A stretch of DNA of 32,065 nt from Acidobacteriota bacterium (GTDB lineage Bacteria; Acidobacteriota; Terriglobia; Acidiferrales; UBA7541), in assembly GCA_003225295.1 (NCBI GenBank), contig QHYZ01000029.1, positions 1 to 32,065 of the forward strand, written 5' to 3'. Position numbers and translations under genes: made by a program. Positions 5,750 through 28,763 of this stretch are shown piece after piece. The stretch's first letter is position 1. Every line of letters begins with the position of its first letter. The notes beneath the pieces were generated by a model. The model saw only the letters and a program-made list of their open reading frames with translations, searched no databases and was not told the DNA's origin.

Positions 5750-5813
5750 GGGCACACCGGAACAAATCGAACGTGCCTTTCCGGGTATCGTATACCTGCC
5801 ATAGGGGGTGACC

Positions 5814-6338
5814 ATGAACAGGTTAATGCAAGTGGCGGGTGCGATCGGAATGTTGCTTGCCGTGCGGCAAGGACCGGCGCGACTGGAAGTGCCGGAAAGC
5901 TTGAAGGCGCCGGCAGACGAAGAAGTGATCTTGGCGGCACACGCAACCGGAGTGCAAATCTATGTGTGTCAGGCCGGAGCAGACCAAGAGTTTCGGTGGG
6001 TGTTCCAGGCGCCAGAAGCGGATCTAACGGACGTGACAGGGAAGAAAATTGCGCATCACTTCGCGGGGCCAACCTGGAAGCACCGAGACGGAAGCGAAGT
6101 GCAAGATAAAGTGGTCGCCAAGCAAGACGCACCAAGGCCGGACGCGATTCCGTGGCTGCTGCTGACGGCGGCAAGTCACACCGGAGAAGGAATTCTCAGC
6201 CGGGTCACGAGCATCCAGCGGATGCATACCGGGGGTGGCCTGCCGCCGAATGCGAACACCTGCGCTGCGTCTCGGAACGGCAAAGAATCGCGGAGCGCGT
6301 ATTCGGCCGATTACTATTTTTACGCGTCAAAACACTGA
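5814..6338 (+). CDS. Secreted DUF3455-family protein
   Basis: A 174-residue exported protein of unknown function. The N-terminus MNRLMQVAGAIGMLLAV is a short signal peptide or anchor. The body follows the DUF3455 pattern: LAAHATGVQIYVCQAGADQEFRWVFQAPEADL, then GKKIAHHFAGPTWKHRDGSEV, then IPWLLLTAASHTGEGILSRVTSIQRMHTGGGLPP and a C-terminal YSADYYFY. In this family the GxGxxxxVxxIQRxxTxGG segment is the signature. ATG 5814 is favoured over GTG 5808 because the purine-rich AGGGGGTG (5803-5810) serves as its ribosome site. It lies 64 bases downstream of arsM on the same strand, so read-through is possible, but nothing in the protein suggests arsenic chemistry. Confidence 0.82.
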   Translation: MNRLMQVAGAIGMLLAVRQGPARLEVPESLKAPADEEVILAAHATGVQIYVCQAGADQEFRWVFQAPEADLTDVTGKKIAHHFAGPTWKHRDGSEVQDKVVAKQDAPRPDAIPWLLLTAASHTGEGILSRVTSIQRMHTGGGLPPNANTCAASRNGKESRSAYSADYYFYASKH

Positions 6339-6428
6339 ACGGTCGTTGCGGGGTGTTCACTTGAGGACAGGAGACCGCGTCGGGCGCCCAGGCCAAGCCG
6401 CAACCGCGCCACTCTCCAGCCATGAATG

Positions 6429-6770
6429 TTAGTTTTCCGGTCTGGCGGCTGGATCGAAGATCACCGAGATTTCCATGGCTGTTTCAGAGCTGCTCGGAGC
6501 AAACTTCCATTGACTGACTGATTTTTGGGCGCTTTCAGCCAGAATCGCGCTGCCGCCGAGGACTGCCGTATCCCTGACGGAGCCGTCCGGCTTGATGAAG
6601 ACCTTCAGGCGGACGGTTCCACCGATGCCTTTCATTTTGAGGACCAGGGGATATTGCACCGGCACTTTCTTGAGAATCTTACGGGCGGCATCCTGCGCGT
6701 AGCCCATGGACATGCAGGAGAGCATGACTAGGAGACAGCTGATCTTCCTATAAGCATCGAATCTAGTCAC
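6429..6770 (-). CDS. Small secreted TonB C-terminal-domain (energy transducer family) protein
   Basis: With GTG 6770 as start the product is 113 residues: a signal peptide (TRFDAYRKISCLLVMLSCMSMGYAQ) and a TonB_C-like domain. The domain reads VPVQYPLVLKMKGIGGTVRLKVFIKPDGSVRDTAVLGGSAILAESAQKSVSQWKFAPS. The pattern P-x-YP...G-x-V-x-L/K-V-x-I-x-x-DGxV...G...L...A...V..W.F is typical of the family. There is no N-terminal membrane anchor of the true TonB kind, no Pro-rich linker and no ExbB/ExbD nearby, so coupling to a receptor is unlikely. The frame stays open to 6980, but that extension has no signal peptide at its start and no similarity I recognise. The start codon is uncertain. Confidence 0.7.
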   Translation of the reverse strand: MTRFDAYRKISCLLVMLSCMSMGYAQDAARKILKKVPVQYPLVLKMKGIGGTVRLKVFIKPDGSVRDTAVLGGSAILAESAQKSVSQWKFAPSSSETAMEISVIFDPAARPEN

Positions 6771-7153
6771 GTTTTCACCATCACCTGAGCCGGCCAAAAC
6801 TTGAAATCCGTGCGCGCTCCTCTGCGGTAAGCAATTGCCCGTGTTTACGCTGCACTCGACGGCCCAAGGGACAAGCTGTTTAGACGGCCTGTTCGAGCTT
6901 GCTAACAGCCACTCAACTTCGTGCTTAACCCGTTGGATTCTTTGAACTTGTTCCGCGGCAGGAATACAAACCAAGAACATGGACCGGAGACCCGCCCGGT
7001 CGTGCCCGAGCGTGGTCTCACTGCTTTGTTTCAGATTGAGAATGTTCCTCTAGGAGATGAGCGACCAGGGCAAAGATGGAAAACCACGAAAGGGAAGTAG
7101 CGGTTTGCCTGGCGGGTCATCAGTCGGTGAAATCCGCAGGAGCAACATTTCTC
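6771..7153. other. Gene-free stretch between the TonB_C-like gene and the small ORF
   Basis: About 380 bases without a convincing coding region. The minus-strand frame that continues upstream from 6770 to 6980 is open but looks non-coding. I see no tRNA, no strong inverted repeat and no clear promoter in it. Confidence 0.4.
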
Positions 7154-7444: not shown

Positions 7445-7608
7445 GGAATGGGCTGCGGGGGCCTAGAGCGCAGCGCTTGTGGGTTGAGCTGTGGGTCTAA
7501 GGGCTGGAATACAAGTGGTTTAGGAGTGCGAGGGTGGGGGATTTGCAATGTGTAATATTTGCAGATTCCAGCGCGTACTAGTCTATGGGAACGCTGAGAC
7601 CAGGCCGG

Positions 7609-8193
7609 ATGAGCGCGCCGGGAATGACCAAACCGACGGAGGCGATTGCCCGTGCCAGGGCGGGTGACGCGGAGGCTTGGGGCCAGCTCTACCGGGATTA
7701 CGCACCCGCGATATTCCGGTTCTGCAGGCGTGCCTTGCCGACGCGTGAAGATGCCGAAGATGCCACCATGGAAATATTCATGAAACTGAAGGACAAGCTG
7801 GTGCAGTACGACGCGACGCGGTCGTTTTCTGCCTGGCTTTACAAGGTGGCGGCGAATCACTGCTGGGATACGCTGCGGCGGCGGAGAATTCGTCAAGACA
7901 AGGAAACGGACGATCTGGAAAACGTGCCACTGGAGCATCCGGACCCGAGCCAACTGGATCAGCTGATCGAGCAGCGCACCAGTGAAGAGGTGCGCAGGGC
8001 ACTGAACAAACTGGGCGGGCGAGCGCGCATGGCTCTGGTGATGCGCTATTACTCCGATATGAGCTACGACGAAATTGCAGATGCGCTGGGAGTGCGGCGC
8101 GCCTTTGTGGGCGTAGTGCTGCTGCGTGCCCGGCACGAACTGCGGCAAGCGCTGGAAGGCAACGCGGCGCTGGCGGCGGGAGGGGCTTCATGA
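7609..8193 (+). CDS. ECF-type RNA polymerase sigma factor
   Basis: A 194-residue sigma-70 family protein with only regions 2 and 4. Region 2 runs from IARARAGDAEAWGQLYRDYAPAIFRFCRR through DAEDATMEIFMKL to FSAWLYKVAANHCWDTLRRR. Region 4 is ALNKLGGRARMALVMRYYSDMSYDEIADALGVRRAFVGVVLLRARHELR, with the helix-turn-helix at DEIADALGVRRAFVG. It directs polymerase to a regulon that cannot be read from this window. Three in-frame ATGs compete (7585, 7609, 7624). 7609 has an AGG five bases upstream and fits the family N-terminus best. The stop overlaps the next start as ATGA, so the sigma factor and its membrane partner are translationally coupled. Confidence 0.9.
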   Translation: MSAPGMTKPTEAIARARAGDAEAWGQLYRDYAPAIFRFCRRALPTREDAEDATMEIFMKLKDKLVQYDATRSFSAWLYKVAANHCWDTLRRRRIRQDKETDDLENVPLEHPDPSQLDQLIEQRTSEEVRRALNKLGGRARMALVMRYYSDMSYDEIADALGVRRAFVGVVLLRARHELRQALEGNAALAAGGAS

Positions 8194-9875
8194 GCGAAAT
8201 GCCGAAAGAGACGAAGCATCTGGACGAAATGACACTCCTGCTGTACATCGAGCGGCAACTGGATCGCGCACGCGGGCTGGAAGTTTCCGCGCACACACAA
8301 GAGTGCGATGCGTGCCGCACACTGCTGCGGGTGCTGGAGAGCGAATCGCGGCTGCTGACACGAGCGATGCTGGAAGAAGACGAACCGCTACCCTCGCGGC
8401 TGGCGCAATTTCAGGAACGCGCCCGGAAATCCATGCAGTGGATTTGGGGAGTGATTTTCGGCCTGGCGGCAACGGGAGTCTACGCGCTTTATACGACTTA
8501 TATCCAGCCTTGGCAGCATCAGCTGGAACAAGCGGGATTCGGTGGTTCGAACCTGCTGGGCTTGCTGATTTTTCAGGGCGCAATGTGGAAAGGATGGCAA
8601 TCCATGATGACCCTCCTCGAAGTGCTGGCGATGGTGACGCTGGCGGGACTGGGAGCAATGTTGTTCCGGCGGCGGATCCGGCGCGGAGCGGCGCTGGCGC
8701 TGGTCTTCGCGGGGTTCTGCACCGTGCTGGCACTGCCTACGGCGGTTTCGGCGACGGAGCATCGCGGGGGACAGAGTCCAACGGTGAGCAAGGAGGAAAC
8801 CATCAAAGGGGACATCTACCTCACCGGTGAGCGGGTGCGCGTGGAAGGCACGGTGAACGGCGATGTTATTGCGGCGGGCAAAGATATCGATATCGACGGG
8901 CACGTGACCGGAGACGTGATCAGCGCCGGCAGGTATTTGCGGATTCGCGGTACGGTCGACGGCAATATACGCTCTGCGGGGAATACCGCGGTCATCTCCG
9001 GGACGCTGGGGAAAAACATTACCTGGTTCGGCGATGCAGTGACGGTGGATGCCACGGGGAAAGTTGGGGGCGGCGTGACGATGTTTGGTGGCACGCTGGC
9101 GATGGACGGGCATCTGGGCCGCGACATACTTTTTTATGGCGATGAAGTGAACGTCACCGGCGGCGTGGGGGGCGGCATCCACCAAAAAGGGCATTCGCTG
9201 ATTATCGGATCGAGCGCGCAGGTGGACGGACCGATTCGCTTTGAAGGCGACCATCCGGCCAATGTTTCGCCGGGGGCCAAGCTGGCTTCGCCAGTGGAAT
9301 TCAGGCAGATGGAGAGGAGGGCAAGCTACCGGGAGGGCCACTACTACGTTTGGCAAGTGATCTGGGCGGCGGCGTTTATTTTGTTTGGGCTGGTGCTGTT
9401 TGCGTTGATGCCAAAGTTTTCGCAGGAGGCGGTGAAATCGGCGGAACAGTATGGCGCGACCGCGGGATTGGGCGTGCTGGTGCTGTTTGGCGTGCCGATC
9501 GCCGCGTGCATTGCATGTGTCACAGTGGTGGGCCTGTTCATCGGTGTTTCGACGCTGTTCCTCTGGTATGCGTCGCTTTATTTCGCGCAGATCATCGTGG
9601 GAGCAGTGATCGGGCAGTGGTTGATGGGCCGCACGAGCGAGCTTTGGCCGCTGATTGGGCGAATGACCGTGGGGCTTGTAATTGTGCGCTTGTGCACGAC
9701 GATTCCGCACGTGGGCGGCTGGGTGAAGTTTGCCGCGATACTCTGGGGTATCGGGGCAATTTCGCTGACGTTCTACCGCCGCTTCCAGCCGGTGATTGCC
9801 CCAAGTGTGCCGTCTGCGCCCTACGCACCGCCGATGCCACCGAATACGACCGTGGGTGGGGCTCTGCCCGCGTGA
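8190..9875 (+). CDS. Membrane anti-sigma factor fused to a bactofilin-like (polymer-forming) beta-helix domain
   Basis: 561 residues. Residues 1-80 form a zinc-finger anti-sigma domain with the H35-x3-C39-x2-C42 motif (AHTQECDACRTLL), expected to bind the sigma factor encoded just upstream. Membrane spans follow at about 84-101, 125-160 and 168-188, the last ending in an Ala-rich ALPTAVSA stretch. Residues about 205-365 are a run of short beta strands with hydrophobic/Gly turns (EGTVNGDVIAAGKDIDIDGH, GDVISAGRYLRIRGT, GNIRSAGNTAVISGT), matching bactofilin/polymer-forming right-handed beta-helices. Four more hydrophobic spans occupy about 385-510, before a Pro-rich tail. Bactofilins are usually small cytoplasmic scaffolds. 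Here the fold is tethered between membrane segments, so an envelope-sensing or scaffold role is inferred. Confidence 0.88.
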   Translation: MSEMPKETKHLDEMTLLLYIERQLDRARGLEVSAHTQECDACRTLLRVLESESRLLTRAMLEEDEPLPSRLAQFQERARKSMQWIWGVIFGLAATGVYALYTTYIQPWQHQLEQAGFGGSNLLGLLIFQGAMWKGWQSMMTLLEVLAMVTLAGLGAMLFRRRIRRGAALALVFAGFCTVLALPTAVSATEHRGGQSPTVSKEETIKGDIYLTGERVRVEGTVNGDVIAAGKDIDIDGHVTGDVISAGRYLRIRGTVDGNIRSAGNTAVISGTLGKNITWFGDAVTVDATGKVGGGVTMFGGTLAMDGHLGRDILFYGDEVNVTGGVGGGIHQKGHSLIIGSSAQVDGPIRFEGDHPANVSPGAKLASPVEFRQMERRASYREGHYYVWQVIWAAAFILFGLVLFALMPKFSQEAVKSAEQYGATAGLGVLVLFGVPIAACIACVTVVGLFIGVSTLFLWYASLYFAQIIVGAVIGQWLMGRTSELWPLIGRMTVGLVIVRLCTTIPHVGGWVKFAAILWGIGAISLTFYRRFQPVIAPSVPSAPYAPPMPPNTTVGGALPA

Positions 9876-19443: not shown

Positions 19444-19474
19444 AATAAAAAGGCCCCCACAAGTTCGGGGGCCT
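19444..19474 (-). terminator. Terminator of the five-gene sigma/DUF4097/PDZ operon
   Basis: On the minus strand AGGCCCCC pairs with GGGGGCCT (19451-19458 and 19467-19474) around an eight-base loop, and TTTTTATT follows. It starts 20 bases past the PDZ gene stop and ends the operon that begins at 25058. Confidence 0.88.
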
Positions 19475-19494: not shown

Positions 19495-20562
19495 TTAGAT
19501 GCTGGTGCGACGCGAGACGAGGCGCTTGGGACGCGCGGCGGGAGCGGGCAACTCAACAGTAAGGGAGATGTCACTCTTGTTGCGCAGGACGCCCAACTTC
19601 ACCGTTCGATCCTTATCATCGCGCTTGGCCGAGAGCTTTTCGCGAAGGTCGCCGACGGTGCGAATGCGGTCGCCGTTCAGAGAGGTAATTACGTCGCCCG
19701 CTTTCACGCCGGCCTTTTCCGCGGGGGAACCGGAGTTGACATCGCGAACCAGTATTCCCTCGCCATCGGGAGCACCGAAGAATGCGCCCAGCTGTCCGCT
19801 GAGATCTTCGGCATCAATGCCGAGCCGGGGCTGGCCTCCGGCGAGCATGCCGCCGTTCCATTCCATGGGGGGAATTTCCGGGATCTCGGGCATGCGGAAA
19901 GCGAAGGTCCCGGGGGTCGGCGCCACCATCTTCATGGCGTGGTGACGCTCTTCGGATTTGCCGAGCGTTGCGCTAATAGCCTGGGTGCGTCCATCACGCC
20001 ACACGGTGAGCTGGATGCTGCGGCCCGCAGGAATCTCATGAATCATGCGGCGAAATTGCGCCGCGCCTTCGACGCGCTGTCCGTTGATTTCCGTCACCAC
20101 GTCATTTTCCTTGAGGCCTGCCTTGGCGGCGGGACTGTCCGGAACGATTCTTCCGAGGACCACGCCGCGCTCGGCAGCGAGCTTCAGTTCCTTGGCCTTG
20201 TCCGCCGTCACTTCATGAGTTTCGACCCCGAGCCAGCCGGAACCGTCGTCGCCGATCAGGATATTCAGATCGTCGGAGGCGACGCGCGGCAGGACTTCGA
20301 TCTGCCCGGGATCCTGATTTTCCTGGACGATAGCCTGCGCCGACTCCTTGAGCGCGTCCCGGACAGCGAGTTCTGCCTCTTGAACTTGCTGGCTCTCGAG
20401 CTGCGCCTGTAACTTGGCCTGCAGCTCATCGATCTTTTGCTGCAAGCGCGCGACCGTCGAGTCCTCCGGCTTTTGGGCCCTGGCGGGGCTGGCGGGCAGA
20501 GCGACCAAGGCCAGCCCGAAGGCGGCAGCCCCACCAATCATAAACAAATTTCGCTTGTTCAT
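19495..20562 (-). CDS. Secreted protein with coiled coil and two PDZ domains (no protease domain)
   Basis: 355 residues. The signal peptide MNKRNLFMIGGAAAFGLALV ends after ASPARAQ. Residues about 37-70 form a coiled coil (VARLQQKIDELQAKLQAQLESQQVQEAEL). PDZ 1 is at about 108-200: GWLGVETHEVTADKAKELKL, GVVLGRIVPDSPAAKAGLKENDVVTEINGQRV. PDZ 2 is at about 245-330: PRLGIDAEDLSGQLGAFFG, GILVRDVNSGSPAEKAGVKAGDVITSLNGDRI. The layout resembles HtrA/DegP with the trypsin-like domain removed; no His/Asp/Ser catalytic set is visible. AGGAGG lies 11 bases before the ATG. As the last gene of a sigma/anti-sigma operon, it could bind C-termini of envelope proteins and modulate a protease or assembly factor. 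That role is inferred. Confidence 0.88.
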   Translation of the reverse strand: MNKRNLFMIGGAAAFGLALVALPASPARAQKPEDSTVARLQQKIDELQAKLQAQLESQQVQEAELAVRDALKESAQAIVQENQDPGQIEVLPRVASDDLNILIGDDGSGWLGVETHEVTADKAKELKLAAERGVVLGRIVPDSPAAKAGLKENDVVTEINGQRVEGAAQFRRMIHEIPAGRSIQLTVWRDGRTQAISATLGKSEERHHAMKMVAPTPGTFAFRMPEIPEIPPMEWNGGMLAGGQPRLGIDAEDLSGQLGAFFGAPDGEGILVRDVNSGSPAEKAGVKAGDVITSLNGDRIRTVGDLREKLSAKRDDKDRTVKLGVLRNKSDISLTVELPAPAARPKRLVSRRTSI

Positions 20563-20610
20563 TTTCGTCCCATCCTCCTAGAGCGGTTAGACGCGGCAAA
20601 CGGAAAATCG

Positions 20611-21375
20611 TCAGACGGTCGACCGCAGAATGACCACGCGAATCCCGCCATTCACGGTGCGCAAATGAATCGGAGCGCCGCCGCGACCCAATTTGCCATG
20701 CATCTCCCGGGGACGCTGATTACTCTCCATGGTGATGGGGAGTTCGGAAGAGAAGTTTCCATTCAGGCAGCGAGCTTCGACATCCGCCTGCATGTCGGAC
20801 GGTACGGCGAGCACAAGAGAACCGTTCGTGGTTTCCGCGGTGGCGCCGGTTTTGTCCGGGAGGTGCGCCAACTCCAGGTGCACATTGCCATTCGTTGTGT
20901 GTGCATGAACGTTCCCGCCGGCTTCGAACACTTCGATATTGCCGTTCACGGTATGCAGGTCTTCCACGCTTACGACGCCGGCAACGCGCAGGGTGCCGTT
21001 CACCGTGCCGATATGCTCCACGCGCGCGCCGTGCGGAACGTGGATGGTGTATTCCACGGCCACTTCCACGCCCTCATTTTGCGGATAGCGAGTGGCGATG
21101 GAGATGGCGTCCGGCCGGGCGTCAACTTCAATGGAAACACGCTCCAGATCGGACTCCTTGTGTTTGGCGGTCTTCACCGCGTGCACCTCAATCTCGTTGC
21201 GATCCCAGCCTTGCACGTCGACAGTTCCGTTGACGTTTTGCAACTCCAAGGAACCGCCGGGCTGAAGCGGATAGGATTGATTGAACTCCTTGCTGATGGC
21301 GAAACCGGGGACGGCTCCAACAATGGCCAGAAGCAATACATACAGAGCAGTCGCGCGGAGAGCTGGACGAGGCAT
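20611..21375 (-). CDS. Secreted DUF4097-family beta-repeat protein
   Basis: 254 residues with a signal peptide (MPRPALRATALYVLLLAIVG, cleaved after GFA). The body is a beta-solenoid-like DUF4097 ('putative adhesin') fold, marked by regularly spaced Asn-Gly turns: LQNVNGTVDVQGWDRNEIEV, IGTVNGTLRVAGV, LHTVNGNIEVFEAGGNV, HTTNGNVHLEL, ETTNGSLVLAVP, RCLNGNFSSELP, and a terminal VNGGIRVVIL. It is exported and probably surface- or periplasm-associated; no enzymatic residues are seen. GGGGGT lies before the ATG at a good distance. It follows the DUF4097-TonB_C fusion gene by 74 bases and precedes the PDZ gene by 48, in one transcription unit. Confidence 0.88.
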   Translation of the reverse strand: MPRPALRATALYVLLLAIVGAVPGFAISKEFNQSYPLQPGGSLELQNVNGTVDVQGWDRNEIEVHAVKTAKHKESDLERVSIEVDARPDAISIATRYPQNEGVEVAVEYTIHVPHGARVEHIGTVNGTLRVAGVVSVEDLHTVNGNIEVFEAGGNVHAHTTNGNVHLELAHLPDKTGATAETTNGSLVLAVPSDMQADVEARCLNGNFSSELPITMESNQRPREMHGKLGRGGAPIHLRTVNGGIRVVILRSTV

Positions 21376-21449
21376 AACGTTTTACCCCCTTCGAGTAAGT
21401 GCTACCAACCAGAACCCAACAAAACTCGTTTGCGCCGAGACCACGCCGC

Positions 21450-23279
21450 TCAGTGCAACTGAAAATTAAACGTCACCGTCGAAATCACTTCGACCGGTTT
21501 GCCGTTAATCGAGGCCGGTCTTGCCCGCCACTGCTTCACCGCAGCGATGGCGGCATCGGAGAGCGCCGGCTCGCCTTCCAGCAGTTTCTGCACCTCGACG
21601 CTGCCGTCTTTCTTCAGCCGTACCTGGAGCCTCACGATGCCTTGTAGGCCAGCGCGTTGGGCGAGCGCCGGATAGGAAGGCTTTGGAAAATTGACCAGCC
21701 GCTTCTGGAAATCGTCAGGATCCTCGGTGATGCCACCCCTGAAAGTGATTTCCAAATTCACCAGCCAGCTTTCGAGCCAGTCGGTCTTAGTTTCGGAGGG
21801 AGCCGGCATTTCTGTGGGGATCGATGAGCCCGATCCCGGTCCCTTGGAGAAGGACACCGCCTCAAAACCATTTTCCGTCAATCTCTTATTGAGGCGGTCC
21901 ATCTGTTCGCGGATGAGCGATTCGTGAAGAGCAACCTCCGAATCCAGGAACTGGAGACGAATCTTTCCAGCCGTGGTTTTCAATTTGAGCGGGGCGCCGC
22001 CCCCGTTCAAGACCGCCATGGCGTGTACCGGTCCGGAACCATTGGTAGGCACCTGCATCGTCAAGTGCAGCGCGGGATCCGCTTCGATGCGGCGCTCGCC
22101 CCCGTTGGCCACGGTGGCGTCGATATTCGCGGCGAGATTCCGCGGCAGAAACACGACAATGTCGCCGTTGCCGGAATTGAGCTGCGATGCGCCCGCGAGC
22201 CGCACGTTTCCGCCTCCGGAAGGCGAATCTGGATTAATCCAGGCTGTAATGGTGCCGCCGGAGGTGGCCGCCTGCAGGGCACCGGCTACGCGAGTCAGGC
22301 AAATGCTGCCGCTACTCGATTCCAATTCCATCGGACCGGAAACGTACATGACGCGAATCCCGCCTCCGCCGGTCTGGGCGTGCACCGAGCCGCGCACTTC
22401 TCCGAAATCGATCTGCCCGCCACCGGTGCGTACGCTGACGAAATTCCCAGCACGAGCAACGGTGATGTTGCCGCCAACCGTTTCCAGTTCGGCACGCCCG
22501 CCGATTTGGCCGGCGCGGATGTGTCCGCCCCCGGTGCGCAGCGAAGCATCTCCCGCGATGTTGCCCACGTTAATGTGGCCGCCTCCGGTGAAGGCCGTAA
22601 GGTCACCAGCGACATCGAGAACCTGGATGTGTCCGCCTTCCGTCTCCAGTTTGGCGGCGGAGCGCCCCAAGGAAGCGTCGTGGAGTCCCGAACCAGCGAT
22701 GCGTCCCATCTTGATGTTTCCGCCCTGAGTGTGAAGTGCGGCCGTCCCACCGATGTCCCCGGTCGTGATGTCGCCCCCCTCGGTGTTCACGTCGATGCTA
22801 TAGCCGCGCGGCACGGCAACCTCAAACTGCACCCAGAACTGGGCATCGGCGGAGCGCACCGCTTGTGGCGGAAGCATGCCGGTGATTTCCACGCCCGAGG
22901 AGATCGCCTTGAACTTGAGAGAGTAAGCATCAAGGAGTTGTTGAGCGGCTGCACCGCGGGCGTCAGTTTCGATGTGCACGGTGTAGCGCACGACGGGCGC
23001 GGCACCCGCTTCGAGTTGAATAATGTTTACAGACCCTAGATCCGTCGTCAGCCGCAGCGTAAGACCATCTTTGGTACCCAGCGTGCCGCTGCGAACAATG
23101 GACGCATGCTGCGAACCCGGGTCAGGGGGTTGGGTAGGCGCGGTCCCTGGTGGTTCTTTGGCTTCGGCCGGCCAGGCCGGCGGCGTGAGCGGTGCTAAGA
23201 AAAAGAGCATGGCCAGAACGGGGAACGGCGCCACACGGCGCGCCACGGAAAAAGGCCTTTGTTGGAAAAGTGCGTTCAT
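21450..23279 (-). CDS. Secreted DUF4097 beta-repeat protein fused to a TonB C-terminal-like domain
   Basis: 609 residues from ATG 23279. The N-terminus MNALFQQRPFSVARRVAPFP followed by VLAMLFFLAPLTPPAWPAEA is a long signal peptide. The central part (about 170-430) is a DUF4097 solenoid whose turns repeat Gly-Gly: TEGGDITTGDI, TQGGNIKMGRI, TEGGHIQVLDV, TGGGHINVGNI, TGGGHIRAGQI, TVGGNITVARA, TGGGQIDFGEV, TGGGGIRVMYV. Residues about 520-609 form a TonB_C domain: FPKPSYPALAQRAGLQGIVRLQVRLKKDGSVEVQKLLEG, ending AAVKQWRARPASINGKPVEV. The frame stays open to 23588, but that part only overlaps the upstream gene. The start has no clear ribosome site; it lies 22 bases after the anti-sigma stop, so coupling is possible. 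Confidence 0.87.
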   Translation of the reverse strand: MNALFQQRPFSVARRVAPFPVLAMLFFLAPLTPPAWPAEAKEPPGTAPTQPPDPGSQHASIVRSGTLGTKDGLTLRLTTDLGSVNIIQLEAGAAPVVRYTVHIETDARGAAAQQLLDAYSLKFKAISSGVEITGMLPPQAVRSADAQFWVQFEVAVPRGYSIDVNTEGGDITTGDIGGTAALHTQGGNIKMGRIAGSGLHDASLGRSAAKLETEGGHIQVLDVAGDLTAFTGGGHINVGNIAGDASLRTGGGHIRAGQIGGRAELETVGGNITVARAGNFVSVRTGGGQIDFGEVRGSVHAQTGGGGIRVMYVSGPMELESSSGSICLTRVAGALQAATSGGTITAWINPDSPSGGGNVRLAGASQLNSGNGDIVVFLPRNLAANIDATVANGGERRIEADPALHLTMQVPTNGSGPVHAMAVLNGGGAPLKLKTTAGKIRLQFLDSEVALHESLIREQMDRLNKRLTENGFEAVSFSKGPGSGSSIPTEMPAPSETKTDWLESWLVNLEITFRGGITEDPDDFQKRLVNFPKPSYPALAQRAGLQGIVRLQVRLKKDGSVEVQKLLEGEPALSDAAIAAVKQWRARPASINGKPVEVISTVTFNFQLH

Positions 23280-23301
23280 CGTCGAAACAATTTCTGGCCG
23301 G

Positions 23302-24384
23302 CTACTGCACTTCACGAGGGCCAATTTGCCGTAAGGCAGCGGCGCTGCGCAGCCGCACGTAACGGCTGGGATCCCGGTGCTGCAACTGTTCGAGAGCGCG
23401 AACCACGCGTTCCACCGACTGAGCCTCTTCCGGACGGTCTGCCTGCACTGCCGTCGTGGCGTCGGCCGCCATCTCTTCCGATTGGCCGTGCTGCAAAGAT
23501 CCGACAAGAACATTGACGGCTTCAACGCGCACGCCCGGATTGGAGTCATGCTCCAGCGCATCGAGCAGGGCCTGTCGTACATCATCATCCGAGGCCGCCT
23601 CGCGGAGCGACTCCAGGGCCTTCATGCGCACGGCGGGATTCTGATCCTTGCGAGCCGCAGCGATCAGCGCCTGGCGCACTTGCTGATCCCGCGAAACCGC
23701 CTTCAGCGCTTCGAGGCAATCCAGGCGGACACCGGCGTCGAAGCGCTCGCCATTTTCAACGACGTAGGTAAGAACACGGCGCATATCGCTGTCCTGGACA
23801 TTGCCGTAGAGAACCAAGGGCTGCTCTGCACTGAGCTGCAGTTGCACATCGGGAGAGCCAGAACTCGAAGAGGGCGGAAAATTGATGCCCCCGACAACCA
23901 TCTTCGAAAGCTGGTCTTCCGTAAGCGGAGGCTTGGCCATGATGTTCATGGCCTGACCGTTGGCGTTGCCATTATTGCTGTTCTGCAGCCACGGAACTAC
24001 CTGCGTTCCAACCAGGATCCCGAAGAGGACCAGGAGCGCGCCGCTCCAGGCGGGGCGCAGCGCCATCCAGCGACGCAGCCAGCCAAAGGGACGCCAGTGT
24101 TCCTGAATCGGCGGCGCGGAAAGATCGTCGAGCGTCTCGGCCAGCTCGCTACGGCATTGCGAGAGCAGGATACCGGAAGAATCGAGTTCATCGGCGGGCT
24201 GCCGACGAGCGACCATGGCTTCCTGAAGATCGTTCTCTTCGGCAAGCTGGGCGGCGCACGCTCGGCAATTCGCCACATGCGCCTCAATCTCTTTGCGTTC
24301 CCTGTCGCTGACCTCGTCGCAGGTGTAGAAAACCAAGAGCGGCGCGATATCTTTGCAGTTCACGCTCTTTTCAAAAGCGCTCAT
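23302..24384 (-). CDS. Membrane anti-sigma factor with C-terminal HEAT repeats
   Basis: 360 residues. The N-terminal zinc-finger anti-sigma domain has H36-x3-C40-x2-C43 (AHVANCRACAAQLAEEND). A single membrane span sits at about 113-130 (WSGALLVLFGILVGTQVV), so the rest is outside the cytoplasm. A disordered Asn/Gly/Ser linker is followed by HEAT-like helical repeats at about 205-360: VRLDCLEALKAVSRDQQVRQALIAAARKDQNPAVRMKALESLREAASDDDVRQALLDALEHDSNPGVRVEAVNVL, and a last one, RDPSRYVRLRSAAALRQIG. The HEAT array is the likely sensor or docking surface, with the zinc finger holding the sigma factor. ATGA overlap with the upstream sigma gene shows translational coupling. Confidence 0.9.
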   Translation of the reverse strand: MSAFEKSVNCKDIAPLLVFYTCDEVSDRERKEIEAHVANCRACAAQLAEENDLQEAMVARRQPADELDSSGILLSQCRSELAETLDDLSAPPIQEHWRPFGWLRRWMALRPAWSGALLVLFGILVGTQVVPWLQNSNNGNANGQAMNIMAKPPLTEDQLSKMVVGGINFPPSSSSGSPDVQLQLSAEQPLVLYGNVQDSDMRRVLTYVVENGERFDAGVRLDCLEALKAVSRDQQVRQALIAAARKDQNPAVRMKALESLREAASDDDVRQALLDALEHDSNPGVRVEAVNVLVGSLQHGQSEEMAADATTAVQADRPEEAQSVERVVRALEQLQHRDPSRYVRLRSAAALRQIGPREVQ

Positions 24385-25058
24385 CGCAGGCCTCCCAATT
24401 CATGGCGGAGTTTGCGCGTTGCGCGGAACAGTGAATTCTTCACGGTTTCCTCGGTCGTGCCGAGCGCGTCACCAATGGCTCGCAGCTTCAGGCCCTGATA
24501 GTGCTTCATCTCGAAAACGATGCGTTCGCGCGGCGAAAGACGCTCCATGGCAGTGGCGATGCGCGCCTTGATTTCCTTGCCGATGAACGTGCGCTCGGGG
24601 TCCAGCGTCGGGCGCTGCTCACGCTGGCGTTCGAAAAAGTCGGTGATGCCCTCCTCGTGAAGGCCGGAATTCAGTTCCGGAGCCTGATCTTCAGGGCGCG
24701 CCTGGCGGCGGCGCAAATGGTCCAAGCAAACGTTGGTGACGATGCGGTAGAGCCAGGTGTAAAAGCTGCACTCGAAGCGGAAACGATGGAGATTGCGGTA
24801 GACCTTTAGGAATGCTTCTTGGTAGACGTCTCGGGCATCCTCGGGGCGCTTCATGAGATTCAAGGCCAGCCGCAGGACGTCCCGATCATAGCGGCGCACC
24901 AGTTCCTCGAAAGCCGCACGGCTGCCGGTTTGCGCTTCCGCAACCAAGACCCGCTCGTCAAGGTGGGGCAAAGAGATCACCGAGGCCAGGGCGGCATCTG
25001 TGCTACCCGAGCGACCGTTGTCATCAGCCAAAGCTAAAGCCCATCTGGGGAGCGGCAT
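24381..25058 (-). CDS. ECF-type RNA polymerase sigma factor (SigE-like)
   Basis: 225 residues with sigma regions 2 and 4. Region 2 runs from AEAQTGSRAAFEELVRRYDRDVLRLALNLMKRPEDARDVYQEAFLKVYRNL to FECSFYTWLYRIVTNVCLDHLRRR. Region 4 is AMERLSPRERIVFEMKHYQGLKLRAIGDALGTTEETVKNSLFRATRKLRHEL. An unconserved 30-residue N-terminus precedes region 2, and a linker rich in Glu/Arg (DFFERQREQRPTLDPERTF) joins the two. It heads the five-gene operon and probably activates it among other targets. The ATG at 25058 has only a weak GAGA upstream. It is most like RpoE-type envelope stress sigma factors. The regulon beyond this operon cannot be read here. Confidence 0.92.
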   Translation of the reverse strand: MPLPRWALALADDNGRSGSTDAALASVISLPHLDERVLVAEAQTGSRAAFEELVRRYDRDVLRLALNLMKRPEDARDVYQEAFLKVYRNLHRFRFECSFYTWLYRIVTNVCLDHLRRRQARPEDQAPELNSGLHEEGITDFFERQREQRPTLDPERTFIGKEIKARIATAMERLSPRERIVFEMKHYQGLKLRAIGDALGTTEETVKNSLFRATRKLRHELGGLR

Positions 25059-25083
25059 ATTTCGCTTTCTCTTCGCGTGCGCT

Positions 25084-25137
25084 GGTGTTGCCGGTTGTAA
25101 AACAACACCTTAGCTCAAATTCCAGCCCCTGGGCTGG
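25084..25137 (-). promoter_or_regulatory. Inverted repeats in the leader of the sigma operon
   Basis: Two perfect dyads lie just upstream of the sigma gene: GGTGTTG (25084-25090) with CAACACC (25103-25109), and CCAGCCC (25122-25128) with GGGCTGG (25131-25137). In RNA both would form hairpins in the 5' leader. No U-run follows, so attenuation is not shown. They may be operators or translation-control hairpins. Confidence 0.4.
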
Positions 25138-25203
25138 ATACCGCACACAACGCGACCACCCAATTTGGACGCACTACTACGCCCATAGGTGAGCACCGCT
25201 TCT

Positions 25204-25304: not shown

Positions 25305-28300
25305 CTAGAGGGGGGAACCGGCGGCTGAAGCGGCACTCTTTCGATCGCCCATGCGCCAGGCCATCAACGGCCAGGCGAAGAACAGAACCACGGCCAGCAG
25401 AACGGCATAACCATTCGCCCGATAGAACGAATCCGGCTGAGCGAGCAGTTCGGCGGCGCCCCCCAGCAAGGATGTGCCGGAAACGATGAGGAAGCAGCCG
25501 AGGATGTTAAAGCGCATGACGTAGCGCACGCCGAGAGCGAGAACGCTGAGCAGAATGACGTGCCTCAGGAATTGTTGCGCAAGGTCGGCGGCGCCCCCCC
25601 AACTTCCGCCCGTGAAAGCCATCGCGCCCAGCAGGAAAAGCAATACGCGAAGCGCAGTTTGTCGAACATGGGCCGCAAGGAAGGACGCGACCGCAGCGAC
25701 TAGACCGGTGTAAAGCAAACTGCGCAACACGGTTCCACCCAGAATGGCACCAAAGGGGAGGATGGCGTCGAAGTCTTGGCCGAAGGAAGCTCCGAGCGTG
25801 CGATGCACCGTCGGCCAGTGTTCCGAAGCAGCCGCGAGCAGATGTTCGAGGCCGAACAACCCCGCGGCCCCTCCCACCCCGATCCACAGCGCGTCGCGAT
25901 AGAAAGCCGCTGGCATGCCGGACCAGCCCGGCAGACGCTCTTCACCCCATGCGCGGCTGCCGAAATACCACGCCATGCCAAAGAGCAGCGCGATTCCGCC
26001 GACGTAGAGAGGAGCGCCGAGCAGGGCGATGATGGCAACCCCGGCATACGTCAACTTGAGTGGATTGCCCGAATCGTAAGCATTCAACGCTCCGGGGAAG
26101 ACATTCCCAAGAGCGAAAACGGCAACATATCCGGCCAGGGCCCAAATCGACCAGAAGGTGATTCTTCTCCACGGAATCGAGCGCGCAAATTGTGACCGCA
26201 GGTTTTTCAAAAACACCATCAGGGCTGTCAGGCCTAGCCCGGCATAAAACAGGAAAGGAATCACAATCGAGACAATGATCCGGGTAAGGCCGCGCTCCTC
26301 TTGTTGGCGCTCCCAGCTTTCCGGGATATTGACGTAGGTCCGATAATTGGTGACCTCGTCTCCCAATACTTTCAACTCCACGCGTGCGTGCGCATGATCC
26401 TGGGAGTTCGCCGCCGGTGCTGGCCGGGAGTCGAGCGATGGGGCTTGCTCCCAGGTCAGGGTGTGATCAATGCGGCGCGGCCGCTTCTTTGATTCGTCTC
26501 CAACTAGAGACCAACCCTGCAGGTCGAGTTTTTTTTCCCGGCGCAGAAACTCTTCCGCGCGGGCCACGGCCTGGTCCTTGTCGAGCGATGCGCCGGGCGC
26601 TTCTTCGGCGAGTTTATGCCACACCGAATGAAGTGACCCGTCGGGCTTCAGAATGACCGCGAATTCTTCCGGTTGGCTGTCACGGAAATAGCGCACGCGC
26701 CAGAGTGCAGCGGGGACTCGTTCGGAGTAGATAGCGTTGACTTCCGCAATGCCGATGCGCTCCCGCAGATATTCGTTGGCATGCGGATCGGCATTGTTGA
26801 CGAACACGACGGCATGGTAGTAGGTATTCGGATCGACGCCGCGCTGGCGCATAACTTGATCGGCGTGCGCCCGAGCCGTTCGCGCGTCGATCGACAGCTT
26901 CAGGTAATCACCAATCGACGGCGGCTTCAGCCGCCATGCCAACGCGCCGCCGGCCAGCAGGCAGACGGCAAGAAAAGCAACCATGCCAGGTGAGAGGGCG
27001 TCGTAGCCGCTTGATTGGACTTCAGAAGTTGCCGCCGCAGGTTCGCTGGTAAGATCGATTTCCGGCGCGGGCGCCGCGCGATTGAGAAGGTCTTCAGCAG
27101 TTTCGAACCCGCCGCGAGTCAAGTAGGAAATACAGGCCAGGGCCAGAGGGGCAAGCGCGGCGGCTCCCACCACCACGCCCGATATCTTGAAATAAAGACT
27201 GTTCGAACGGATCAGCAGCATGCCAACCAGCGAGGCGTCCACGGTGTAGTGCCAAATGAGGGTTGCCAGGATGCCCCAGCGCAACATCACCATCCCGGCA
27301 ACAACGCCGATGATGCCCACCTCAATCCCACGAATGTAACCAGGCTCCTGCGGATAGGCGCTGTGCAGAAAACTCCAGGAAAACGCCGGCAAGATGACCG
27401 CCAGGACTCGGGACTTGGTCACCCGCTCCACAAAGGGGATGGCAAAAAGGCGGAAGAGAAATTCCTCGCTGGTGGAGGCCATGAGACCGATGGCCACGCC
27501 CGCGATCCAGGGAAACGTCGTGTTCACCGCATCGGAGTAGTTCAGATCCTGGGGTGCCCAAACTCCAAAGCGGCTGCCCACCAGGTAGAAGGCGACAATG
27601 AAGCCGATGTGACCCGCTGCCAAGGCCAGCCCGACAACGGCTGACGAGAAGAATTCTCTCGAACGAAGCCCACGCATGGTGAAAGCCTTGGAAAGCTGCA
27701 TCCGATTCGGCTGGTAGGAGCGATAGAGCGGCTCCCCGCCAGGGAGCACCAGGGTCACCATTAACGCCGTACCGAGGGCGGAAAGGAGAGCTATCCCCAG
27801 CCGAAGCACGACGAAACTGGCATAGGAATCGTGCGTATCGTAACCGGCGCGCTCGAATTGCCACTGATTCAGCTCCATGAGGAAAAAGAGCGCCGCGACG
27901 ATCATGCCCAACTTGATGGCCCCACTCCAACTTGTTTGCCCGTGCTTTGTGAGCGTGATGCCCACCCACAGCGCGCTGCCGAGCAACACAACGTACGGAA
28001 TGATGGCGATCTGGTTGTAAAAAAGATTCGAAGAGCGCAGTTGCTGGTAGCTGCGCCGCCACGCTTCGGGAACGTGCAGGAACTCTTCGCTGCCACCGAT
28101 TCGTTCGCCTTGGACAGTGACCTGCAGACGGTAGGGCGCGTCTTTCGCGCGGAAGCCGTGCTTTTCCCATGTAAAATCCCAATCCAGACGGTTCGGCCGC
28201 TTGTTCGAATTGGCTTCTTCCGGGAGAACGTCCCAGGCGTTCAAATGGAGTCCGAGTTTCGTGCTGAGATAGTCTTGCGCTGCGGATTGGGCGGCGGCGC

Positions 28301-28763
28301 GGTCGAGCGATGCCCCGGCGCGCGATTCCTCGATATGGTGATCGTAGCCGACGATTTGTCCCGCCGGGCTCACGCGAACGCGGAATTCTTCTTCCTGTTG
28401 CGGCTTGAAGAAACGCACGTCCCAGAACCAGATATTCAGCTCGCTGGACATGAGTTTGTTGGCCTGCTGTAATCCGAGCTGGCGCTCGAGATAGACCTTG
28501 GCGTTGTCGTCCACCGCGAAGACAATTGTCGATTGGTAGCCGCTGACGTCTTCACGAAGTCCGCTGACGAATTTCTGTGCGCGCGCCAGCGCTTCCTCGC
28601 GGGAGACCTGAAAATTAACGGAGGCTTCGGGGAAAGCGCGGAAAAAATACTTGTAGGCGAACAGCGCGCCCAGGATTCCCACCACCACCCAGAGGAGTAG
28701 TGTGCGCTTGTCGGAACCTGTTAGACGGTCTCCCGCCACGTGAAGCCTCCCCGTTTGGGACAT
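25305..28763 (-). CDS. Large CPBP-family intramembrane protease homologue with duplicated ectodomain
   Basis: 1152 residues, several times the usual 200-300 of the CPBP (Abi/Rce1-like) family. After one membrane span (about 21-40) come an extracytoplasmic module A (about 50-245), a membrane block (about 250-545) and a linker. A further span (about 593-611), module B (about 622-825) and a second membrane block (about 828-1140) follow. The first membrane block carries the CPBP catalytic set: EEFLFR with E433 and E434, H467 in FSWSFLHSAY, and H505 in LIWHYTVDA. Modules A and B resemble each other: KRPNRLDWDFTWEK/KRPRRIDHTLTWEQ and VPEAWRR/IPESWER. The second membrane block lacks the EExxxR set. 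The start ATG has GAGGG five bases upstream. Confidence 0.85.
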   Translation of the reverse strand: MSQTGRLHVAGDRLTGSDKRTLLLWVVVGILGALFAYKYFFRAFPEASVNFQVSREEALARAQKFVSGLREDVSGYQSTIVFAVDDNAKVYLERQLGLQQANKLMSSELNIWFWDVRFFKPQQEEEFRVRVSPAGQIVGYDHHIEESRAGASLDRAAAQSAAQDYLSTKLGLHLNAWDVLPEEANSNKRPNRLDWDFTWEKHGFRAKDAPYRLQVTVQGERIGGSEEFLHVPEAWRRSYQQLRSSNLFYNQIAIIPYVVLLGSALWVGITLTKHGQTSWSGAIKLGMIVAALFFLMELNQWQFERAGYDTHDSYASFVVLRLGIALLSALGTALMVTLVLPGGEPLYRSYQPNRMQLSKAFTMRGLRSREFFSSAVVGLALAAGHIGFIVAFYLVGSRFGVWAPQDLNYSDAVNTTFPWIAGVAIGLMASTSEEFLFRLFAIPFVERVTKSRVLAVILPAFSWSFLHSAYPQEPGYIRGIEVGIIGVVAGMVMLRWGILATLIWHYTVDASLVGMLLIRSNSLYFKISGVVVGAAALAPLALACISYLTRGGFETAEDLLNRAAPAPEIDLTSEPAAATSEVQSSGYDALSPGMVAFLAVCLLAGGALAWRLKPPSIGDYLKLSIDARTARAHADQVMRQRGVDPNTYYHAVVFVNNADPHANEYLRERIGIAEVNAIYSERVPAALWRVRYFRDSQPEEFAVILKPDGSLHSVWHKLAEEAPGASLDKDQAVARAEEFLRREKKLDLQGWSLVGDESKKRPRRIDHTLTWEQAPSLDSRPAPAANSQDHAHARVELKVLGDEVTNYRTYVNIPESWERQQEERGLTRIIVSIVIPFLFYAGLGLTALMVFLKNLRSQFARSIPWRRITFWSIWALAGYVAVFALGNVFPGALNAYDSGNPLKLTYAGVAIIALLGAPLYVGGIALLFGMAWYFGSRAWGEERLPGWSGMPAAFYRDALWIGVGGAAGLFGLEHLLAAASEHWPTVHRTLGASFGQDFDAILPFGAILGGTVLRSLLYTGLVAAVASFLAAHVRQTALRVLLFLLGAMAFTGGSWGGAADLAQQFLRHVILLSVLALGVRYVMRFNILGCFLIVSGTSLLGGAAELLAQPDSFYRANGYAVLLAVVLFFAWPLMAWRMGDRKSAASAAGSPL

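Follow-up and report, generated by a model that had tools for sequence, protein, structure and literature searches.

Acidobacteria are counted among the most abundant soil phyla (PMC7074687, in the part available), and the literature searched yielded little on how they sense damage to their envelope. In Granulicella sp. WH15, expression of a sigma factor annotated as SigW rises in high sugar (PMC7074687, in the part available). A candidate system for such sensing is a five-gene locus on the minus strand of contig QHYZ01000029.1 of an Acidobacteriota bacterium (assembly GCA_003225295.1; the whole contig stretch of 32,065 nucleotides is called the window hereafter). The genes encode a sigma factor of the extracytoplasmic function (ECF) type, an anti-sigma factor with a HEAT-repeat domain, a large DUF4097 protein ending in a TonB_C domain, a small DUF4097 protein and a double-PDZ protein.

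Comparison with related genomes leads us to regard this locus as probably being an autoregulated ECF sigma/membrane anti-sigma operon that serves the acidobacterial cell envelope; quality control may be its role. An earlier note, made from the letters of the window alone, had proposed a self-contained circuit in which the HEAT domain senses the state of the DUF4097 solenoids. The operon headed by a regulator pair, its gene order and the description of the PDZ protein stand in what follows; the sensing of solenoids by the HEAT domain finds no support, and the self-containment is not quite right.

Conservation of the gene order across the Acidobacteriota

Gene order was compared in 71 loci: the window, 50 genomes with good matches to the anti-sigma factor and 20 of 68 wider matches, chosen for spread. 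All 71 loci are conditional on carrying the anti-sigma factor, and a paralogue (L077) was excluded from the tallies. In the first set, 56 of 61 genomes matched the anti-sigma factor, partially and weakly in G047, G048, G049, G055 and G057; G015, G020, G029, G045 and G056 gave no match. G015 has the promoter described below and the sigma gene at a contig end, and G029 has the promoter at a contig end (G029:C712). In the wider set, 68 of 297 genomes matched.

The sigma gene precedes the anti-sigma gene in 70/71 loci, the remaining locus beginning at a contig end. Downstream, the next matched gene within 600 bases encodes a protein of the exported set in 70/71 loci (in the one exception a contig end interrupts the locus), and in 66/71 loci, across the phylum, this next matched gene encodes a DUF4097 protein. 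All five genes are found in order in 27 of the 33 genus loci, the other six being cut by contig ends and consistent, and the single family-level locus is complete. At the order level, four of six loci are complete, one is cut and one (L067, cut before the sigma gene) has no small DUF4097 gene. Among the 18 class-level loci, ten keep sigma, anti-sigma, DUF4097 and PDZ genes, three lack the PDZ gene, four lack DUF4097 and one is cut; the 13 loci of other classes comprise two with the PDZ gene, ten with sigma, anti-sigma and DUF4097 genes and one that is cut. The earlier note had asked whether related genomes keep the order, and it is conserved beyond the genus, which argues that the arrangement is not due to chance. 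The tallies define the sigma factor, the HEAT anti-sigma factor and DUF4097 as the core. The PDZ protein, the second DUF4097 protein and the TonB_C domain occur in narrower clades and would most simply be later additions.

The sigma pair and the exported genes could also be neighbours by descent, sharing a place and not a function. We find this hardly credible, since the order is retained over classes while the flanks change (a CPBP-type gene adjoins the operon in the genus alone) and the promoter motif is common to the operon and an unlinked gene.

A promoter motif ahead of the sigma gene

An alignment upstream of the sigma genes yielded the pattern GCTYAC-N15-18-CGTC, and this pattern matches the window at one place only, ahead of the five genes. 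The strict motif lies upstream of the longest sigma open reading frame in 37/49 loci, including one (L074) where it falls just inside the frame; two of the 12 misses have fewer than 85 bases upstream. When at most one mismatch was allowed in GCTYAC, the motif was found before the sigma gene in 47/67 loci, against 51 of 1340 mononucleotide shuffles. By rank, this form was present in 30/31 genus loci, 0/1 family locus, 5/5 order-level loci, 10/17 class-level loci and 2/13 loci of other classes. A motif ahead of the sigma factor's own gene in so many loci indicates autoregulation, and the operon would thus control its own transcription in the cell.

A structured leader RNA was also considered and rejected: the window shares an inverted repeat (GGTGTTG...CAACACC) with some relatives, but across 21 leaders RNAalifold found only six pairs around the promoter, none changed on both sides.

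The sigma factor and its HEAT-repeat anti-sigma factor

The sigma factor consists of sigma2 and sigma4 domains alone (Pfam, NCBIfam), as is characteristic of ECF (group IV) sigma factors. Its anti-sigma factor is encoded in the same operon, and the two genes overlap by 4 bases in 29 of the 33 genus loci; the four others have an over-extended reading-frame start, a cut contig or a split frame. The split frame is that of L065, where the anti-sigma gene lies in two frames (5767-6805, G030:C62), by frameshift or sequencing error.

Residues C10, H36, C40 and C43 of the anti-sigma factor, which mark a zinc-type anti-sigma domain, are invariant in 23 aligned sequences, down to 25% identity. The AlphaFold2 model built from these 23 sequences (mean predicted local distance difference test score, pLDDT, 79.4; predicted template-modelling score, pTM, 0.57) shows a helical anti-sigma domain, a helix of membrane-span length (111-137), a three-strand meander and HEAT helices at about 199-354. 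Simple hydropathy found a hydrophobic segment at the expected position in 60/71 anti-sigma factors. The protein thus has both the C-H-C-C motif and the transmembrane helix of class I zinc anti-sigma factors (zf-HC2, or ZAS), which it also resembles in the C...HxxxCxxC spacing and in the overlap with the sigma gene; unlike other members of the class, it carries a small beta meander and a HEAT-repeat domain beyond the span. A cytoplasmic anti-sigma domain followed by a single span places the HEAT domain outside the membrane, presumably in the periplasm. Foldseek searches with the model returned generic alpha-solenoid matches, none at E <= 0.001.

The exported products

Simple hydropathy detected an N-terminal hydrophobic segment in 62/66 large DUF4097 proteins, 33/33 small DUF4097 proteins and 49/49 PDZ proteins, some reading-frame starts being over-extended in these counts. 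In the AlphaFold2 model of the large DUF4097 protein (mean pLDDT 80.1, pTM 0.63), a regular beta-solenoid whose rungs take up about 18 residues each leads into a TonB C-terminal fold. Its top Foldseek match was a Toastrack entry (4qrk, E 7.8e-6), yet with TM-scores of 0.13 and 0.31; other matches were a putative pectinase, putative adhesins and TonB C-terminal domains, one of them transporter-bound. Pfam, AlphaFold2 and Foldseek together identify the DUF4097 domain and single-stranded beta-helix that characterize Toastrack proteins. RseB/MucB was not recovered: for this third gene product Pfam gave DUF4097, TonB_C and a sub-cut-off TolA match, and RseB/MucB was absent from the 50 best Foldseek matches.

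The Toastrack assignment raises the possibility of a membrane-damage response like the Lia and PSP systems, in which the Toastrack proteins would be near-membrane scaffolds recruiting other stress proteins. Indeed, the available text of PMC11237479 describes Toastrack (DUF4097/DUF2154/DUF2807) as a recurrent PSP partner and mentions neighbourhoods with regulators, among them an operonically linked sigma factor; the domain is the same here, and Toastrack is the best structural match, at low TM-scores. The same source predicts Toastrack to be intracellular, whereas both DUF4097 proteins of the window start with export-type sequences. Moreover, Pfam identified no PspA, PspC, LiaI-LiaF-TM or two-component partner among the ten window proteins scanned. 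The operon itself differs from the Lia/PSP arrangement in having no PspA, PspC or Lia partner and in joining its Toastrack proteins to a HEAT anti-sigma factor and a PDZ protein. We judge such a response unlikely.

The TonB_C domain, for its part, would suit surface signalling or uptake of the FecI-FecR type, in which TonB_C would link the sigma factor to a TonB-dependent transporter. It scores above the Pfam cut-off, and the Foldseek matches to TonB C-terminal domains, one transporter-bound, agree with it. Pfam places the domain in the window and in L066, and full-length similarity extends it to the genus. However, it was not found in L070 and L080, and the large DUF4097 homologues of five other order-level loci end in charged sequence resembling a coiled coil. 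As Pfam identified neither FecR nor a receptor gene in the operon, we consider this explanation very improbable.

The last product matches PDZ-type families above cut-off, together with DUF6288 overlapping one PDZ domain, and Pfam found no trypsin-type domain in it. NCBIfam HtrA models match it in their PDZ part. It therefore resembles HtrA/Deg proteases in its PDZ domains, which match the PDZ part of DegP, and departs from them in lacking the trypsin-type domain; the wording of the earlier note, HtrA without its protease, describes it well.

Do the exported proteins form a complex?

The C-termini offer a first indication. Motifs of the form [ST]-x-hydrophobic are class I PDZ ligands. Among complete genus proteins, all 28 small DUF4097 proteins finish with [STA][ST][VI]; 26 of the 27 PDZ proteins finish with [TSA][NS]I, and the remaining one with MSI. 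By comparison, an [STA]-x-[VILF] end was found in 0/33 sigma factors, 0/33 anti-sigma factors and 0/28 large DUF4097 proteins of the genus. Where the end of an order-level homologue is complete, its last residue is still hydrophobic, but the tail motif is not kept. These conserved, ligand-like tails of the small DUF4097 and PDZ proteins suggest a complex.

Evolutionary distances were compared over 24 of the 33 genus loci (L064, L065, L085 and the cut loci were dropped) and corrected for the average of the remaining parts; the method is a weak one and carries no significance values. Within single proteins, corrected correlations were 0.40 for the two anti-sigma domains and 0.46 for the solenoid and TonB_C domain of the large DUF4097 protein. 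Between exported proteins they reached 0.57 (solenoid and small DUF4097), 0.44 (small DUF4097 and PDZ), 0.40 (TonB_C and small DUF4097), 0.33 (TonB_C and PDZ) and 0.21 (solenoid and PDZ). For the HEAT domain the values were 0.05 (solenoid), -0.26 (TonB_C), 0.05 (small DUF4097) and -0.09 (PDZ), and for the zinc domain paired with the exported parts they ran from -0.21 to 0.05. Before correction all pairs correlated at 0.52-0.93, HEAT and the exported parts at 0.52-0.75. This comparison points, weakly, to the exported proteins forming a unit of which the HEAT domain may not be the direct reader.

These data bear on a closed loop of the RseA-RseB kind: the periplasmic HEAT domain would bind the DUF4097 solenoids or the PDZ protein directly, and their state would set sigma activity. 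A DUF4097 gene is the next one matched after the HEAT anti-sigma gene in 66/71 loci, which is the position of rseB/mucB (PMC3815931, in the part available), and the paralogous cassette of the window's own genome (G000:C64, L077) likewise couples a HEAT anti-sigma factor with two DUF4097 genes. Yet the HEAT domain shows no positive corrected correlation with the solenoid, TonB_C, small DUF4097 or PDZ parts beyond 0.05 (range -0.26 to 0.05, against 0.21-0.57 between different exported proteins, by the same weak method). Furthermore, DUF4097 is gone from the cassette in four of the 17 uncut class-level loci while the HEAT anti-sigma factor is kept; the same genomes hold weaker DUF4097 matches elsewhere. 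The direct sensing of solenoids proposed by the earlier note finds no support here, and we see the closed loop as possible but doubtful.

A second predicted target

The pattern GCTYACN{16,17}CGTCYAA gave 71 matches in 36 genus genomes, against 51 in the reversed control. Twenty-six are the sigma promoter (in one, G029:C712, at a contig end, the gene is not seen) and ten precede an unlinked gene for a small membrane protein. This protein has some 140 residues, contains a hydrophobic span and matches no Pfam family. This gene has homologues in 12 of the 36 genomes, the own-genome copy lying at G000:C75:78830-79225. When the protein match was used to set gene starts, the strict motif was found to begin 68-72 bp before the gene in 10/12 homologues and a one-mismatch form is present in one more; the spacers differ. 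The gene is a predicted member of the regulon, so that the circuit, taken by the earlier note to be self-contained, would reach at least one gene beyond the operon.

A wider regulon did not emerge. In the window's own 8.1 Mb genome, GCTYACN{16,17}CGTCYA had seven matches against 24 in the reversed control, and the remaining 35 genus matches are below control level; the commonest of these (11 genomes) was located within a long reading frame in both of the cases retrieved. An exported gene that seems to resemble DUF2911 lies 75 bases after one own-genome site, a single case that we do not claim as a target.

The strict operon motif was also seen upstream of an S41 tail-specific protease gene (L198-L227) in two genomes. 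A relaxed motif gave 12 matches upstream of 30 S41 homologues, against 37 of 600 shuffled sequences; nine of these matches are a different motif, GCTYAAC...CGTCTA, perhaps the promoter of another ECF factor.

Layout of the locus and related genes

The coordinates are collected in Table 1. Pfam confirmed every domain named by the earlier note, and the reading-frame coordinates bear out its five collinear genes, all on the minus strand, with intergenic distances of -4, 22, 74 and 48 bases. The frame of the large DUF4097 gene extends upstream without a stop as far as an ATG at 23588; the start chosen is the ATG at 23279, after which a signal-peptide-like sequence follows. The terminator scan of the region gave four sites against 7.2 expected in shuffles and is by itself not significant; the terminator of the operon is credible because of its position, 20 bases past the last stop codon. 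The locus is predicted to be transcribed as a single unit, encoding a regulator pair and three products whose N-termini are of the export type, as the earlier note had it.

Table 1. Predicted features of the operon, in the order of transcription (window coordinates).
Feature	Position	Strand	Description
Predicted ECF promoter	25168..25194	-	GCTCAC (25194-25189), 17-base spacer, CGTC (25171-25168), then CAAATTGG
Leader	25059..25167	-	109 bases between predicted -10 box and sigma start codon; AGAAAGCGAA ahead of ATG conserved (alignment of 21 loci)
ECF sigma factor gene	24381..25058	-	225 aa, sigma2 + sigma4; Pfam Sigma70_r2 1.7e-20, r4_2 1.1e-12
Anti-sigma factor gene	23302..24384	-	360 aa; Pfam zf-HC2 and HEAT_2 above cut-off; 4-base overlap with sigma gene
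Large DUF4097 (Toastrack) gene with C-terminal TonB_C	21450..23279	-	609 aa, export-type N-terminus; Pfam above cut-off
Small DUF4097 gene	20611..21375	-	254 aa, export-type N-terminus, C-terminus -STV; Pfam
Double-PDZ protein gene	19495..20562	-	355 aa, export-type N-terminus, C-terminus -TSI; Pfam/NCBIfam, two HtrA-type PDZ, no protease domain
Predicted intrinsic terminator	19451..19474	-	9 pairs (7 G-C), then T-rich tail

Related genes were observed at several other places. The own genome holds a second cassette (L077, G000:C64, 5063-8293, plus strand) of an ECF sigma gene, a zf-HC2 and HEAT anti-sigma gene and two DUF4097 genes, in which the strict promoter pattern has no match. In the window, another sigma-like reading frame (7585-8193, plus strand) overlaps by 4 bases a 561-aa frame (8190-9875, plus strand). 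A second DUF4097 gene lies 1.2-3.7 kb downstream of the cassette, on the opposite strand, in six family- and order-level loci (L066 12260-14535, L067 4863-7032, L069 9609-10454, L070 11508-13887, L071 11026-13276 and L076 8976-11207); an ECF sigma gene follows it in five, and the downstream region of L067 also has a weak anti-sigma match. Four of the ten other-class genomes whose cassette lacks the PDZ gene have a strong match to the PDZ protein (220-241 bits) elsewhere. In all four (L239, L240, L241 and L242), this unlinked gene for a protease-free double-PDZ protein is divergent from another ECF sigma gene, 0.2-1.2 kb apart; the fifth fetched locus, L243, with a weaker PDZ match, had no adjoining ECF sigma gene.

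Discussion

Our preferred reading, an autoregulated envelope operon, suggests the following mechanism. In the resting state, the zinc-type domain of the anti-sigma factor would keep the sigma factor at the inner membrane face, while the periplasmic HEAT domain would receive, or be shielded from, an envelope signal. The anti-sigma factor would then be inactivated, most likely through stepwise proteolysis, and the freed sigma factor would transcribe its own operon from the GCTYAC/CGTC promoter, together with the unlinked small membrane-protein gene. As output, the cell would export both DUF4097 beta-solenoids and the double-PDZ protein that lacks a protease domain. These would probably work in a joint scaffold or adaptor complex where the PDZ domains hold the C-terminal tail of the small DUF4097 protein and/or of the PDZ protein itself. 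The genes with their order and domains, the conserved promoter motif, the second site and the conserved tails can be read from sequence; in this scheme we infer autoregulation in the cell, the topology, the proteolysis, the signal, the complex and the role.

Candidates for the proteolysis of the anti-sigma factor are provided by the strong matches in the own genome to M50 (RseP-type; 210.8 bits) and HtrA (448.4 bits, above cut-off). Just upstream of the operon, the window also encodes a 1152-aa membrane protein with a Rce1/CPBP protease domain and apparently repeated halves (25305-28763, minus strand), which adjoins the operon in those genus loci that have enough sequence upstream. We do not claim it as a site-1 protease: neither L066 nor the order- and class-level loci showed a CPBP-type match next to the operon.

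A bolder version, which we think rather unlikely, would see here a widespread envelope-stress system of the phylum, with the protease-free double-PDZ protein as a receptor for C-terminal tails that builds the two DUF4097 solenoids, by way of -STV and -TNI tails, into a chaperone-like lattice in the periplasm. Outer-membrane proteins that are unfolded and expose their tails would compete for it, so that a non-enzymatic adaptor would take over the sensing that the DegS protease performs in E. coli, and the HEAT anti-sigma factor would read a separate second signal.

Several observations weigh against the autoregulated envelope operon as we describe it. The promoter motif is missing in 11/13 loci of other classes, in 7/17 class-level loci and in the family locus L066, so it is either not phylum-wide or has drifted. 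Its -10 element, CGTC, agrees with the ECF -10 CGT, but its -35 element is GCTYAC and not AAC, which the available text of PMC8103513 gives as the -35 hallmark of ECF promoters. Hydrophobic segments fall short of all proteins (62/66 large DUF4097 proteins, 60/71 anti-sigma factors), and the tail motifs are lost in most homologues outside the genus. The solenoid and the PDZ protein correlate at 0.21 only, and distances in 24 related loci may mirror shared rates and not contact. Finally, Pfam found no dedicated protease among the operon products.

The closest parallels are rpoE-rseA-rseB-rseC of E. coli and algU-mucA-mucB-mucC-mucD of Pseudomonas, which, in the parts available of PMC3815931 and PMC8103513, are self-regulated operons of an ECF sigma factor, a membrane anti-sigma factor, one or more exported proteins and, in the algU operon, an HtrA-like protein. 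According to the same sources, a periplasmic third protein shields the anti-sigma factor from proteolysis in these systems, and a PDZ protease reads misfolded outer-membrane proteins. The operon of the window differs from them in the HEAT domain of its anti-sigma factor, in the DUF4097 proteins found where RseB/MucB and MucC sit and in the -35 box; unlike MucD, its PDZ protein has no protease domain. Given that the Pfam and Foldseek searches showed no RseB/MucB match and that the PDZ protein is protease-free, we class it as a variant of the ECF envelope-stress operon and not as a member of the RpoE/AlgU family. It would best be read as working like rpoE-rseA-rseB or algU-mucABCD with exported parts that are not homologous.

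No paper on this operon was found by title or abstract in the open-licence literature searched. The locus is a testable system: its promoter motif is conserved, its anti-sigma factor is named and two targets are predicted. Relatives occur in another 35 near-complete genomes belonging to the same class. The locus would show the layout of sigma factor, anti-sigma factor and exported effectors rebuilt from other parts, and would place Toastrack proteins outside the cytoplasm.

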